Source: a virus. From it: a stretch of 21,962 nucleotides of DNA. The stretch lies in the IMG/VR virus record IMGVR_UViG_3300047408_000153, positions 1 to 21,962 of that record; one strand, given 5' to 3'. A model generated the notes under the pieces. That model made no database searches. It saw only the letters and a list, made by a program, of their open reading frames with translations, and was not told the DNA's origin. Made by a program: the position numbers and the translations under genes. Of the stretch, positions 2,665-10,090 are shown one piece after another (the first letter of the stretch is position 1; every line of letters starts with the position of its first letter).

Positions 2665-2924
2665 TGCTCGCCACCGTCGAAGACGTGCCAGACCAGCGAA
2701 CCGTCAGCCATGAGGGCGGAGCCGATGTAGGGCTGCTGCCAGATCGGGTGACCGGTTCCGCGAATGATGATCTCCCGCGGCCTCGTCTCACTCGTCGGGA
2801 TCACACGCGCCCAGAGGCACAGCTGGTCGTGCTGGACCGCGACGAAAAGCAGGTCGGCGTCGGCGGGCATCCGGATCGCCTGCACGTCCTCGATCGCGAG
2901 CGGGAACTTCCAGACCTCGCTCAA
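2661..2924 (-). CDS. DUF7352-like small phage protein
   Basis: 87 aa from a TTG at 2922-2924, with AGGGG about 5-6 nt upstream as ribosome binding site. The pattern VWKFPLAIEDVQAIRMPADA, then LFVAVQHDQLCLWARVIP, RGTGHPI and a SLVWHVFDGG end is the one seen in a widespread small phage protein family of unknown function (DUF7352 by my recollection). It is soluble, beta-rich and has no catalytic motif. It is the first gene left of the putative attP and may begin the early operon; the AT-richer 2925-3000 stretch would then hold its promoter, although I see no convincing -35/-10 pair. Confidence 0.75.
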   Translation of the reverse strand: MSEVWKFPLAIEDVQAIRMPADADLLFVAVQHDQLCLWARVIPTSETRPREIIIRGTGHPIWQQPYIGSALMADGSLVWHVFDGGEQ

Positions 2925-2973
2925 AACCGCCCCTGAGCAGGGAAATATGTCTTTCGGGCCTTATGCCTGTAAC

Positions 2974-2990
2974 AGCGGATGTGATCCGCT
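2974..2990. repeat. 17-bp hairpin palindrome near attP
   Basis: agcggat-gtg-atccgct is a perfect 7-bp inverted repeat with a 3-nt loop. It contains ggatgtga (2977-2984), the same octamer that recurs at 3021-3028 and 3084-3091 in the direct repeats flanking the putative attP. It could therefore be a further integrase or excisionase site, or a terminator hairpin for the integrase transcript (no T-run follows). Confidence 0.4.
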
Positions 2991-2996
2991 AGGCAG

Positions 2997-3029
2997 AAAT
3001 CCCTGCTGAGCGCACTTTCGGGATGTGAC
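2997..3029 (+). repeat. attP-flanking direct repeat, copy 1
   Basis: This 33-bp unit has ends aaatccctgc and gggatgtgac and a 13-bp variable middle. It matches the unit at 3060-3092 at 26 of 33 positions, with both 10-bp ends identical. Within the unit atccc and gggat form an inverted pair. The copies are 63 bp apart, six helical turns, so bound proteins would lie on the same DNA face. Confidence 0.6.
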
Positions 3030-3060
3030 GGAACGCGGGTTCGATTCCCGCCGCCTCCAA
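3029..3060 (+). other. attP: Putative phage attachment site (attP): 3' end of a tRNA or tmRNA
   Basis: The sequence reads as the T-arm and 3' acceptor strand of a tRNA-like molecule: stem gcggg, loop ttcgatt, stem cccgc, then cgcctcc and discriminator a. No matching 5' acceptor half, D-arm or anticodon arm lies upstream, so this is a fragment, not a gene. The gcgggttcgattcccgcc wording with a cgcctcca end resembles tmRNA (ssrA) 3' ends as well as some tRNAs; I cannot decide. Tyrosine integrases commonly use such ends as the recombination core, which the phage carries so that the host gene is restored. The integrase gene lies immediately beside it and phage genes flank both sides, which favours attP over attL or attR. 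Confidence 0.65.
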
Positions 3061-3092
3061 AATCCCTGCAAATCGCATCGGCGGGATGTGAC
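3060..3092 (+). repeat. attP-flanking direct repeat, copy 2
   Basis: Second copy of the 33-bp unit described at 2997-3029, lying between the tRNA-like fragment and the integrase stop codon at 3096. It has identical ends (aaatccctgc, gggatgtgac) and a diverged centre. Likely recombinase or excisionase binding DNA; this is inferred from position and symmetry. Confidence 0.6.
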
Positions 3093-3095
3093 ACT

Positions 3096-4271
3096 TCAAT
3101 CGTCCCGTTCCATCGCCCGCAACGCGGCAGCGAGGTCGGCGGTGTCGAGGTCGGCGTAGATCGACGTTGTCCTCATGTCGATATGGCCGAGGATCTGCTG
3201 CGTGATCTTCAGGTCGCCGCTGTGGCGCTGGACGGCGCGTCCGGTGGTGTGGCGGCCGCGGTGCATGTTCGCGCCGGCGGTCACGCCCGGGTCGACGAGC
3301 GCGGCGCCCTGGAGGCACCGGTACCACCAGCGGTGCACCGTCTGCCCAGACGACCGTTTCGGGCTGTGGGTGCGGGTGGTGACCTCGGCGTACCCGACCG
3401 GCTCCCCTTGGATCATGAGCATCTCGTCGGCCTCGTCGAGCGGGACGCGGCGGCGGCGGGTGTCGCGCCGGTAGAGCAGGTAGTCCTCCTGGTCGAGCTG
3501 CGCCTCGAGTTGGAGCTCGCCGAGGCGACGCCAGAACACGGGCTCGACGATCGGGATCGGGTACACCCGACCGTTCTTGGTGTGGACGGTCAGCTCGCGC
3601 ATCTCGAAGTCGAAGTGCTTCAACTGGATGTTCTGGATCCCGGAGCGACGAAGGCCGTAGCGGAGGATCAGGTAGGCGAGGACCCAGTCACCGACGTAGT
3701 CCTGCGCCGCGAGCACCTTCTTCACGAACGACTCCGTGAACGTTTTGCGGTCGACGTCGCGGACCTTCGGCATCTTCAGCGCGCGGGCGGGGTTGCCGGG
3801 GAGCTCGCACTCTTCGATCGCCCAGTCGAAGAAGCTGACCCAGATCGACCGGATCTTCTTCTTCGTCCTAGGGGTGGTCGGGGTGCCCTTCGGGGTCGTC
3901 GACCAGTGGCGGGCCATGCACGCGCGGAGCAGCGCGACCCCGGCCGGCGGCGTGAAGTCGAGGATGCCGAGCGTCGGGTTGTCGGTTGCGAGGTGCGCCA
4001 GCGGGGGTTCGTAGTCGCGGACCGAGTCCTTCGAAGCGAACGCCTCGTGTTCGAACCAGTGCATGAACCGCGCGACGTCCGCGCCGAGCGGTGTCTGCTG
4101 ATAGCGCTTGTCAAGCACGGGGTTGTCCAGGATCGCCCTGGCCTCCGCGAGCGTGAATAGCGCCTGCGTAAGATCGTTGCCGCATGGGAGCGAAGACCTC
4201 CTGTGCCGGGCCCCCGGGCGCTGGACGGCGTCGCGGGGGTCATTTGTGTTGTCGGCCAGGATGGTACTCAC
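3096..4271 (-). CDS. int: Tyrosine-family phage integrase
   Basis: 391 aa, GTG start at 4269-4271 overlapping the upstream stop (GTGA). It catalyses recombination between attP and the host attB, and excision together with an excisionase. Visible catalytic set: Arg208/209 in RYGLRRSG, Lys232 in VHTKNGR, the HxxR pair His337/Arg340 in MHRGRH, His363 in QQILGHID, and nucleophile Tyr372 in TTSIYADLD. Residues about 60-165 form the SAM-like core-binding domain. The N-terminal 30 residues are polar and may contain an arm-binding element, but no clear one is seen. The length is normal and the gene looks intact. It is third in a coupled xis-orf-int operon and its 3' end abuts the putative attP. Confidence 0.93.
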   Translation of the reverse strand: MSTILADNTNDPRDAVQRPGARHRRSSLPCGNDLTQALFTLAEARAILDNPVLDKRYQQTPLGADVARFMHWFEHEAFASKDSVRDYEPPLAHLATDNPTLGILDFTPPAGVALLRACMARHWSTTPKGTPTTPRTKKKIRSIWVSFFDWAIEECELPGNPARALKMPKVRDVDRKTFTESFVKKVLAAQDYVGDWVLAYLILRYGLRRSGIQNIQLKHFDFEMRELTVHTKNGRVYPIPIVEPVFWRRLGELQLEAQLDQEDYLLYRRDTRRRRVPLDEADEMLMIQGEPVGYAEVTTRTHSPKRSSGQTVHRWWYRCLQGAALVDPGVTAGANMHRGRHTTGRAVQRHSGDLKITQQILGHIDMRTTSIYADLDTADLAAALRAMERDD

Positions 4272-4453
4272 GTCGCGGTCTCCCTGGTCAGCTTCTCCCG
4301 GACGTGGAGGTGGAGCTCGGTGACGGCGAACAGGACGGCTTGCCAGTCGCGGCGGGAGACGTCGTCGGCTTTCGGTTCCGCGTCGACCCGGTCCTGGAGC
4401 TCGTAGACCGTGTCGGCGATCGCGGTCACGCTGAGGTCGACGATGTCGCTCAC
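4268..4453 (-). CDS. 61-aa hypothetical protein between xis and int
   Basis: GTG 4451-4453 overlaps the excisionase stop (GTGA) and the TGA overlaps the integrase GTG (GTGA). The product is helical and acidic at its start (MSDIVDLSVTAIADTVYELQ) and ends in an amphipathic segment (TELHLHVREKLTRETAT). I recognise no domain. Sandwiched in the recombination operon, it may modulate integration or excision, but that is inferred only from position. Confidence 0.65.
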   Translation of the reverse strand: MSDIVDLSVTAIADTVYELQDRVDAEPKADDVSRRDWQAVLFAVTELHLHVREKLTRETAT

Positions 4454-4659
4454 TGATCGGCCCCGTTGTGGTCGTCGCCGGGTACCGCGTCGATGCCGAG
4501 GTAGCGCAGCACTTCGCTTTCGGGAATCCGCTTCGATCCGTCCGCCAGCTGGGTTACCTTGATCAGTCCCTCGTCGATCCGCCGTTTGATCGTGCGGGGA
4601 TTCTGGTCGGCGAGCAGAGCGAGATGCGTGACCTTGTAGCGCCGCTCGATCCGGGTCAT
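4450..4659 (-). CDS. xis: Excisionase/AlpA-like winged-helix DNA-binding protein
   Basis: 69 aa, ATG at 4657-4659. Residues 8-53 form a MerR/AlpA-like winged helix: YKVTHLALLADQNPRTIKRR (helix-turn-helix), then IDEGLIKVTQLADGSKRI (wing) and PESEVLRYLG. Small proteins of this kind bend DNA at att sites and direct the integrase towards excision, and many also regulate their own promoter. It is the first gene of the operon and lies just downstream of the 10-bp-phased repeat array (4678-4737), a plausible target. A simple transcriptional regulator is the main alternative. Confidence 0.75.
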   Translation of the reverse strand: MTRIERRYKVTHLALLADQNPRTIKRRIDEGLIKVTQLADGSKRIPESEVLRYLGIDAVPGDDHNGADQ

Positions 4660-4677
4660 AGCCGCCGTTTTACCCCG

Positions 4678-4737
4678 CTGTCACCGGGCGCGCTGACACG
4701 CTCTGTCCACGTCTGTCCCGCCCTGACCACTTCTGAC
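4678..4737 (-). repeat. Helically phased GWCAG repeat array upstream of xis
   Basis: On the minus strand the pentamer G(A/T)CAG occurs six times. Five copies are spaced exactly 10 bp apart (plus-strand ctgwc starts at 4693, 4703, 4713, 4723, 4733) and a sixth starts at 4678, 15 bp further on. Upstream flanks often read gtgg or cggg. Same-face spacing 19-78 bp upstream of the xis start suggests cooperative binding of a small regulator, possibly Xis itself or the HTH protein at 5116-5316. Confidence 0.6.
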
Positions 4738-4776
4738 GTAGCGACGGAACTTGCCGCACTTTGCAGGCAAAAGATT

Positions 4777-4814
4777 GGGCAGACGGCCGGCTGTGGCATC
4801 CCGACCGTCTGCCC
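4777..4814 (-). terminator. Strong inverted repeat, possible leftward terminator
   Basis: gggcagacgg (4777-4786) and ccgtctgccc (4805-4814) form a perfect 10-bp stem with an 18-nt loop. Read on the minus strand, the stem is followed by AATCTTTTG, a short T-rich stretch, so it could stop late or antisense transcription entering xis-int from the right. With so weak a T-run, an operator or attenuator role is equally possible. Confidence 0.4.
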
Positions 4815-5115
4815 GGTCGCCGCGAGCGCGGCGGACTCGCCGCCCAAGGTGCCCAGCCACACCCGCCGCACCAGTGAGCAAGGGTGACCACCCAGGATAA
4901 CGTGCCCGCCGGCCGCATGACCCTCCCAGAGTCCCGCCCGGGATGAACCGGGCGTTCGACACTATCCCGTGGATTATGAGAGCGTCAAGATCCCGACCGA
5001 CACGAAAAGCCGCAACGAGCGGGGAGTCCTGCGTAGAAAACCCCTAGACGGGACACGTTCGCTTTTCCGAACAGTCGCCGGGCCGTCGTGACCGGACGGG
5101 GAAGATGCCATAGGC

Positions 5116-5316
5116 ATGGCGCGGAAACACCTCGACGCTGTCCGGAAGGCAGCCAGAGCAATCGACAACGCCAGAGAGAATCTCGGCGACAGGATGCTCG
5201 AGGCGCAGGAGTCCGGTGAAACGGTCGTGGATATCTGCGAGGTCGCCGGGCTCGGCCGGACGCGCGTCTACGAGCTGATCGACGAAGCGAAGCGCCGCCG
5301 GGAACAACGAGGCTAG
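5116..5316 (+). CDS. Small helix-turn-helix protein
   Basis: 66 aa, ATG at 5116, with a GGGGAAG-like ribosome binding site about 11 nt upstream. The N-terminal half is a basic or amphipathic helix (residues 1-32). Residues 36-56 (TVVDICEVAGLGRTRVYELI) have the shape of a helix-turn-helix with recognition helix around GRTRVYELID, and the tail is basic (EAKRRREQRG). It is one of only two rightward genes, divergent from xis-int, the usual place for an immunity repressor or antirepressor. It is very short for a CI-type repressor and has no dimerisation or peptidase domain. No other repressor candidate lies in the window. Confidence 0.65.
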   Translation: MARKHLDAVRKAARAIDNARENLGDRMLEAQESGETVVDICEVAGLGRTRVYELIDEAKRRREQRG

Positions 5317-8377: not shown

Positions 8378-10090
8378 TCAGGTGGGCCACGTCGACCAGG
8401 GCGGCCCCCACGCCCGGTCGCACGAGATGTACAGGACGAAGTGGGGTTTGTAGGTTCCGCCGGTGTTCGCGCACGAGAACGTGAGCGGGACGGTTGCGTC
8501 GTGCCAGGCTTGCGCGACGAGCCGCATCCCTGCTTTCAGGGTGGGGACACCCGAGACTTTCGGGAGCCAGTCGTTCCCGTTGAGGGCGTAGGCGAGGCCG
8601 GCGTTCGGGGCGAAGAAGATGTCCGGGTGGCTACCGGTGTTCCCGGTGTCCCCGGACGCGAACACGCTGCCGCCGAGATAGACGTTGATGCCGCCGCCCT
8701 CGTCGCACGGGTTCGCTGCCTGCTCCGACACCACCTGGATCAGGGTTTTCTGGTGGGTCGTCTCGAAGATCCGCAACCCGCGGAACGACGTGGTGGGCTG
8801 CACCAACGGGTTGTCGATCCGGAGGCACACCTGCATCCAGTCGGACGGGTCGCCGAGGAACGCGACGTCATGCGGGACCGTGATCGCGTGCGGCGCGTCA
8901 ACGTCGAGCCACCCGGCGGCGTCGCTGCTCGCGAGGTCGATCGCGGCGCTCATCCCGTCGGGGTTGTCCCTAGCCATCACCGGGGTCGCGAACGGGACCG
9001 TCGTCCACGTTCTCGGCTGCACGGTGAACGACGGGCCGTCATACGTGAACGGCTGGTCGCTGATCCAGTCGAGCCCGGACGCGGCCGGCGGCGGCGACGG
9101 CGGCGGCTTCGGGGTTTTCGCGGCCGGCATCGTGGATCCGTTCACGGTGACCGCCGGCGCCGGGGGTGGCGACTGCCAGCTGGTGCCGCCGTGCCCGTCG
9201 CTGACGAGCACCGACCCGGCCGCGACCCCGCCGGTCGCGGCCTTGTGCAAACCGTCGACGTCGGCGTCCGACAGGGCGGAGCCGTACACGGCGGCCTCGT
9301 CGATGACGCCGAGGAACGGCCGCCACACACTGTTCCCGGTGGTCGGGGCGTTCGGCCCCTGGTAGCCGCCGATCCGGATCGTCGCGAGCGACCCGCCGGT
9401 GATCGTCGTCAACGTCGAAGAATCAGCGACGGACGCGCGGAGAACACCATCGACGTACACCCGGCTGGTGGTGCCGTCGTACGTCGCGACGAGCAGCGAG
9501 ACCTGCCCGGCGGTCACCGCGCCCGCCGGCGAAGCAGCGGCGACGTACGAGCTGGGGGTGCCGCGCCAAAACTGCACCTCGCCCGTCGGGAACCGCACGT
9601 CCAACGCCCAGTAGCCGACCGAGATCACGCCACCCCAGAACGGCAGCGACGTCGACGATGGCCGCACGAGCGCGACGACGCTCATCGCGGGGTTCGACGC
9701 GTCGAAGTTGAAGTTGATGTTGCTCGACCGGTCGGAGTCCTCGAGGAACGGGTGGACAGCCGCGGCGGCGTCGTTGCCGGCCATGTTGAACCCGACCGCG
9801 CCGTCGTCGGTGTCGGCGGGGAGCAGCCCGGGGGTGACGTCCTCGGTGACGGGGGAGTCGCCGCTGGTGCCGGGGTTCACGGCGAGGTCGCACGGGTTCG
9901 ACGGGTTGTAGCCGCTCGTGTCGGCGTAGAGGGGTGCGCCCTCCCCGAGCCGCCAGTAGCCGCGGAGCTCGGGGAGCGCGAAGATAGCGGTGGTGTAGTT
10001 GCTCGCCTGGCCCGGCAGCAGCCCGGGGACGGGGTCGGGGCCGCCCGCGACGTGGGTGATGCCGTGCATGCGGGGATGCGGCGCCGGCAT
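8378..10090 (-). CDS. Minor tail protein with LamG/concanavalin-like domain
   Basis: 570 aa, ATG 10088-10090 overlapping the hub gene stop (TGATG). Residues 1-35 carry a collagen-fibre style opening (MHGITHVAGGPDPVPG) common at the start of actinophage tail proteins. Residues about 43-290 form a LamG-like jelly roll (ALPELRGYWRLGEGAPLYAD; LLVATYDGTTSRVYVDGVLR; FLGVIDEAAVYGSALSDADV), which usually binds glycans. A Pro-rich hinge follows (about 308-345, KTPKPPPSPPPAASG). Residues 346-570 are a second beta-rich domain (GLDWISDQPFTYDGPSFTVQ onward). It is probably a receptor-binding adhesin at the tail tip. Confidence 0.8.
   Translation of the reverse strand: MPAPHPRMHGITHVAGGPDPVPGLLPGQASNYTTAIFALPELRGYWRLGEGAPLYADTSGYNPSNPCDLAVNPGTSGDSPVTEDVTPGLLPADTDDGAVGFNMAGNDAAAAVHPFLEDSDRSSNINFNFDASNPAMSVVALVRPSSTSLPFWGGVISVGYWALDVRFPTGEVQFWRGTPSSYVAAASPAGAVTAGQVSLLVATYDGTTSRVYVDGVLRASVADSSTLTTITGGSLATIRIGGYQGPNAPTTGNSVWRPFLGVIDEAAVYGSALSDADVDGLHKAATGGVAAGSVLVSDGHGGTSWQSPPPAPAVTVNGSTMPAAKTPKPPPSPPPAASGLDWISDQPFTYDGPSFTVQPRTWTTVPFATPVMARDNPDGMSAAIDLASSDAAGWLDVDAPHAITVPHDVAFLGDPSDWMQVCLRIDNPLVQPTTSFRGLRIFETTHQKTLIQVVSEQAANPCDEGGGINVYLGGSVFASGDTGNTGSHPDIFFAPNAGLAYALNGNDWLPKVSGVPTLKAGMRLVAQAWHDATVPLTFSCANTGGTYKPHFVLYISCDRAWGPPWSTWPT

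Follow-up and report, generated by a model that had tools for sequence, protein, structure and literature searches.

The window, by which we mean the whole 21,962-base virus record analyzed here, contains genes for a large terminase, a portal, a major head protein, a tape measure protein, and an endolysin. It also contains an array of GWCAG boxes between the divergent genes of two small helix-turn-helix (HTH) proteins of 66 and 69 amino acids. The second of these, a winged-HTH (wHTH) gene, is directly upstream of the integrase region. Listed from the 66-aa gene to attP in window coordinates, the features of the locus are as follows.

5116-5316, plus strand: divergent gene for the 66-aa HTH protein, an unlikely ligand of the array, as its relatives lack the array
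4961-4988, minus strand: leftward promoter-like TTGACG-16-GATAGT, a consensus match alone, upstream of the hairpin
4777-4814, minus strand: strong hairpin (inverted repeat and fold) followed by AATCTTTT, a possible terminator
4693-4737, minus strand: core array of five GWCAG boxes in exact 10-bp phase, counted from the sequence
4678-4682, minus strand: sixth box, GACAG (5' end 4682), 15 bp or 1.5 turns from the fifth; doubtful member
4667-4672, minus strand: TAAAAC, a possible -10 element read from the sequence, 7 nt before the ATG
4450-4659, minus strand: 69-aa wHTH gene (HTH_17-like, Xis/MerR-like; weak Pfam HTH_17 match), presumed ligand of the array
4268-4453, minus strand: 61-aa ORF of no family, between the wHTH gene and int
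3096-4271, minus strand: tyrosine integrase (Pfam PF00589, E=2.6e-12; PHROG integrase, E=2e-27), downstream gene in the presumed operon
4274-5083, no strand assigned: exchanged module (array, 69-aa gene, 61-aa ORF), with no similarity to the syntenic record L219
3034-3059, minus strand: attP core at the 3' end of a tRNA/tmRNA-like gene, a 26-mer shared among int loci
2997-3029 and 3060-3092, no strand assigned: 33-nt imperfect direct repeats flanking the attP core, presumed Int sites, containing no GWCAG

On the minus strand, the 5' ends of the core boxes fall at 4737 (GTCAG, 4733-4737), 4727 (GTCAG, 4723-4727), 4717 (GACAG, 4713-4717), 4707 (GACAG, 4703-4707), and 4697 (GTCAG, 4693-4697), with a start-to-start distance of 10 bp. 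The boxes are direct repeats in a single orientation, spaced one helix turn apart, in a G+C-rich stretch. The 69-aa ORF begins with an ATG at 4659 on the minus strand, leaving a gap of 18 bp to the array, and the boxes span positions -19 to -78. An earlier reading of this DNA, made without database searches (the sequence-only reading), had described five minus-strand G(A/T)CAG starts 10 bp apart, located 19-78 bp upstream of the start codon. We located the same five boxes, and the ATG at 4659 fits that distance. The sequence-only reading also counted a sixth box. Its 15-bp distance was correct, but its membership in a same-face array was not: being 1.5 turns from the fifth box, it is predicted to lie on the opposite helix face and therefore outside the same-face array. 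With regard to transcription, TAAAAC, immediately past the array, could make a promoter for a leaderless mRNA, and the T-tailed hairpin upstream of the array could shield the operon from leftward read-through. A terminator scan of the window did not flag this hairpin.

GWCAG occurs at 93 sites in the window (47 on the minus strand and 46 on the plus strand), and the core array is the sole run of three or more boxes at period 10. None of 100 dinucleotide shuffles yielded even three GWCAG boxes in phase. As a look-elsewhere scan, we searched for five copies of any pentamer, at periods of 6 to 25, in which at least four of the five columns were fixed and the other could take no more than two letters; the GWCAG array was the one match in the window. 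Of 600 order-3 Markov simulations of the window, 5 contained a comparable five-copy run with some period between 6 and 25, and 0 of 600 contained one at period 10. The pentamer-run scan of 434 kb of related phage contigs gave 54 overlapping matches, all with periods of 6, 9, 12, or 18, and no run at period 10. These periods are all divisible by 3, as expected from coding repeats. A chance origin of the box run is unlikely.

Lag-10 identity over the whole 50-60 bp was moderately unusual (p about 0.04, mononucleotide shuffle), its modest size being due to the spacers between the boxes, which are not conserved. Both properties are as expected if the box alone is read. They could also be taken to mean that the run is a functionless product of chance or of mutation (tandem duplication), the more so as there is no orthologous copy that would reveal selection. 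We give this explanation very little credence, given the outcome of the simulations and the absence of period-10 runs from 434 kb of relatives. Fixed boxes with diverged spacers also argue against a recent tandem duplication, and two relatives have the same geometry at the same type of operon. Judged by its sequence, the array is non-random and operator-like; it represents a known type of element and comes from a new group of uncultivated phages.

The 69-aa protein matched Pfam HTH_17 with E=0.0014 and 19.3 bits, below the cut-off of 27, and the PHROG excisionase family with E=0.23; on such matches, "Xis" is a weak name for it. AlphaFold prediction from the single sequence gave a mean pLDDT of 55, too poor for a fold search. 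Neither a pattern search of viral contigs nor tblastn against phages, plasmids, and int-related records returned a convincing homologue. The 66-aa protein weakly matches PHROG HTH and late-activator families. Relatives of the integrase were found in records L218-L229. A contig search with Int and TerL for the genome of the window's host found nothing.

Five related records (L218-L222) share the attP core downstream of their integrase genes, identical at 26 of 26 bases. The array is ~1.6 kb from this predicted core, and the stretch around it (2900-3095) contained no GWCAG boxes, with phased weight-matrix matches at background. Because of this distance and because the repeats that flank the core differ from the array, we rejected the idea that the boxes are a cluster of integrase arm-type sites, which had already been thought unlikely from the sequence alone. 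Separately, ARAGORN called a tmRNA at 2718-3059 with an implausible tag peptide; only its 3' end, which is the attP core, resembles a tmRNA or tRNA. An Rfam search of the window returned no match, including for a tmRNA at 2718-3059.

We identified HTH_17 genes in TerL-related contigs with the Pfam HTH_17 family. Among 25 distinct HTH_17 domains for which DNA was fetched, three were preceded by a four-copy phased array, in every case at period 10; periods 7-9 and 11-14 gave no such array. The three include the window; the other two, G009 (contig L354) and G012 (contig L353), were retrieved by terminase similarity and not by their arrays, and the comparison rests on these three loci. In G009, eight boxes in exact 10-bp phase (3692-3767, minus strand: CGGACG, six GGGACG, and GGGCCG) precede a 107-aa HTH_17 gene, which is followed by an integrase gene. 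The boxes recur, four per side and in opposite orientation, at L354 1865-1900 and 1936-1971. Both sets fall within the 250 bp that follow the integrase stop and are bounded by 24-nt direct repeats resembling arm sites. Ten three-box matches were found in this predicted attP stretch compared with 0.02 expected by chance. Over L354 1834-2074, the predicted attP has boxes identical to those of the regulator promoter, mirrored to the left and right of the core, and the G009 HTH_17 protein is a good candidate for a dual-role excisionase. In G012, TGMCTC boxes in 10-bp phase precede an 88-aa HTH_17 gene and an integrase gene; a second, inverted box set is nearer the gene, and the array is farther from the gene than in the window. 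The HTH_17 proteins of G009 and G012 both match the PHROG family "excisionase and transcriptional regulator."

The two loci thus share with the window a 10-bp phased array before an HTH_17 gene and an integrase gene. In contrast, their boxes are GGGACG and TGMCTC rather than GWCAG, those of G009 are also at the predicted attP, and the integrase of the window is not closely related to theirs. Searches with the G009 and G012 integrases returned only themselves. A weak lag-10 signal was present at the same distance in G056 (p about 0.03), whose integrase is 34% identical to that of the window. No array precedes the int-adjacent HTH_17 genes of G026 (if that record is circular), KingMidas, or Ramsey, so the feature is recurrent but not universal.

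Record L219 has an integrase 69% identical to the window's and is colinear with it to the left and right of the exchanged module, where 7217-5822, 5539-5084 (with the 66-aa HTH gene), and 4273-2923 (with int and attP) could be aligned at 76-88%. At the place of the module, L219 has an Xre/CI-like repressor gene (HTH_3, E=3.1e-8), and L218 has an Xre gene in the same slot. The array and the 69-aa gene are both absent from L219, which keeps the 66-aa HTH gene, int, and attP; the array is likewise absent from G020, which encodes a relative of the 66-aa protein (45% identical). One positive and two negative cases therefore suggest that the array accompanies the 69-aa gene rather than the 66-aa gene. 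Because the array and the 69-aa gene are jointly missing from L219 while the 66-aa gene is kept, the 69-aa protein is the likelier ligand. The 66-aa protein, which the sequence-only reading had named along with the 69-aa protein as a candidate ligand, has relatives in L219 and G020 that occur without the array. In addition, the GWCAG array was not found conserved at homologous int loci, the module having been swapped in the closest relatives; it is the geometry that recurs and not the box sequence. The only GWCAG triple among 50 TerL relatives contained one mismatch and had the same sequence in G004 and G045.

What occupies the slot in L219 and L218 raises another possibility, namely, that the 69-aa wHTH protein is the main lysogeny regulator, replacing a CI-type repressor, that the array is its only operator, and that it is not an excisionase. 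This would agree with the conservation of int and the attP repeats between the window and L219, with an attP free of GWCAG boxes, and with the finding of no other repressor among the window ORFs scanned. However, the comparable HTH_17 gene of G009 has boxes at its predicted attP too, and the window is an incomplete linear record, outside of which a repressor may lie. Furthermore, L219 has a second HTH_17 gene elsewhere, beyond attP, that may be its excisionase; the missing 69-aa gene in L219 is therefore no proof against an excisionase role in the window. We consider this alternative doubtful. A broader proposal strikes us as improbable: that across these uncultivated phages the int-side module swaps an Xre/CI repressor for a wHTH protein that polymerizes on its own phased array, the filament being the lysogeny switch, with the 10-bp phase kept as the box sequence varies between phages.

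A scan of the collection for four-copy GWCAG arrays returned at least 119 matches, mostly simple tandem or coding repeats and unrelated late-promoter arrays, so the raw match count is no evidence for the window locus. Unrelated, AT-richer phage contigs (L020, L024, L095, and L114, and also L007 and L008) carry four to six GTCAG boxes phased at exactly 10 bp, with 12-14 nt between the end of the array and a TATAAT-like box. In the first four of these, the array is just after a PHROG_36 "transcriptional regulator" gene and is often followed by HNH or terminase small subunit genes. The arrays in contigs of this type are probably activator sites of late promoters. In L018, L050, L086, L113, L121, and L012, AGTCAG boxes in 10-bp phase with varied spacers precede what are presumed to be genes for the small and large terminase subunits. 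We rejected a PHROG_36-associated late-promoter array as the identity of the window array: neither adjoining small ORF matches PHROG_36, and the array is not near the terminase.

These late-promoter arrays beside PHROG_36 regulators in unrelated phages do lend something to the view that a different protein reads the window array, whether the 66-aa HTH protein, a host regulator, or a two-component-type direct-repeat binder. The 66-aa gene, with its weak PHROG HTH and late-activator matches, points away from the intergenic region that holds the array. Nevertheless, no array accompanies its relatives in L219 and G020, and the array in the window is at neither a terminase nor a late promoter. We think it quite unlikely that one of these proteins is the ligand.

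Recombination directionality factors (RDFs) assemble cooperatively, in head-to-tail order, on tandem direct repeats spaced by one turn and bend the DNA; several double as transcriptional regulators (PMC7498355). The Apl operators at pR-pL of coliphage 186 (PMC7498355; U32222) are, like the window array, direct-repeat boxes one turn apart. Record U32222 annotates seven Apl sites that end 17 bp before apl, a gap that compares with 18 bp in the window, and five at attP. Lag-10 autocorrelation was 0.48 for 186 (0.68 at attP), 0.50 for the window, 0.63 for G009, and 0.55 for G012. The seven sites of 186 are spaced 10-11 bp apart between convergent promoters, whereas the window has five boxes at exactly 10 bp and none at attP. 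The window also differs in that its regulator gene is upstream of int in the same direction, and any kinship of its protein to Apl is hypothetical. P2 Cox and Pf4 XisF4 are excisionases that also regulate lysis-lysogeny promoters (PMC7498355, PMC7379572). The window resembles these systems in having a small DNA-binding, excisionase-type gene with a putative regulatory role away from att; it differs in that no boxes were found at its attP and in that both roles, in excision and in regulation, are putative.

The HTH_17 proteins BldC (PMC5859096) and RdfS (PMC11963761) are, like the putative ligand in the window, HTH_17/MerR-like wHTH proteins, and they polymerize head to tail on direct repeats, each turn taking about one protomer. 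The repeats recognized by BldC are AT-rich and of the AATTNNNNC type (PMC5859096), in contrast to the G+C-richer GWCAG boxes of the window; as the boxes are GWCAG in a G+C-rich stretch, we rejected a BldC family operator. RdfS has no clear consensus (PMC11963761), and the 69-aa protein is a weak HTH_17 match. Operators of the CI/Cro type, which are palindromic and bound by symmetric dimers, were also rejected, as the boxes are non-palindromic pentamers in one orientation. Of the properties of RDF-type operators, the window has direct repeats at one turn and, as with those RDFs that also regulate transcription, a position before the regulator gene; the same boxes at attP, present in G009, were not found.

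Taken together, we favor, with a probability of roughly 60%, the reading that the array is the operator of the 69-aa wHTH protein and that this protein is of the RDF type (Apl/Cox/Xis). By analogy with 186 Apl, BldC, and RdfS, we take the protein to bind the array and regulate its own operon. Protomers would line up head to tail along a single face of the DNA, with one protomer at each helical turn, and the resulting short cooperative filament would bend the DNA where the wHTH-integrase operon begins. The protein would most likely repress its own promoter (autoregulation) and, with it, int; boxes adjoining the -35 region could also act in activation. The identity of the ligand, cooperativity, bending, and the direction of regulation are what we infer. 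The protein may also act as an RDF at an attP without GWCAG boxes, or not at all. Since attP lacks the boxes, and the slot holds a repressor in L219, it may be a pure regulator and not an excisionase. A multi-site, same-face operator at a regulator-integrase operon, as the sequence-only reading had suggested, agrees with the geometry of 186 Apl and with the arrays of the two relatives; the 66-aa ligand suggested with it is not supported. Several points weigh against the preferred reading: the HTH_17 match of the 69-aa protein is weak, and the collections searched contained no orthologue of it; attP and some int-adjacent HTH_17 genes lack an array; the G012 array is more distant from its gene and is accompanied by an inverted set; and very few loci underlie the co-occurrence.

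RDF-like direct-repeat operators with one site per turn are known from a handful of model phages. In the uncultivated phages examined here, unrelated box sequences with a constant phase stand before HTH_17-integrase operons. This suggests a homology-free scan for period-10 pentamer runs before small HTH genes, which could locate switch regions and predict ligand-operator pairs. G009, G012, and the window offer natural pairs for asking how wHTH filaments gain sequence specificity.

Two further observations were made in the contigs surveyed. In L219, the peptide motif L(A/P)D(S/Q)NPxKR recurs on the plus strand near 8810, 8924, 9044, 9259, and 9713. It lies at, or close to, the beginnings of several consecutive ORFs in the early region, and one of these ORFs encodes an HTH_17 protein. 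In L014, L051, L085, L104, L106, and L117, 10-bp phased GTCAGC runs lie inside frames of ~250-300 aa; these frames may be replication genes, and the runs are possible intragenic origin iterons.
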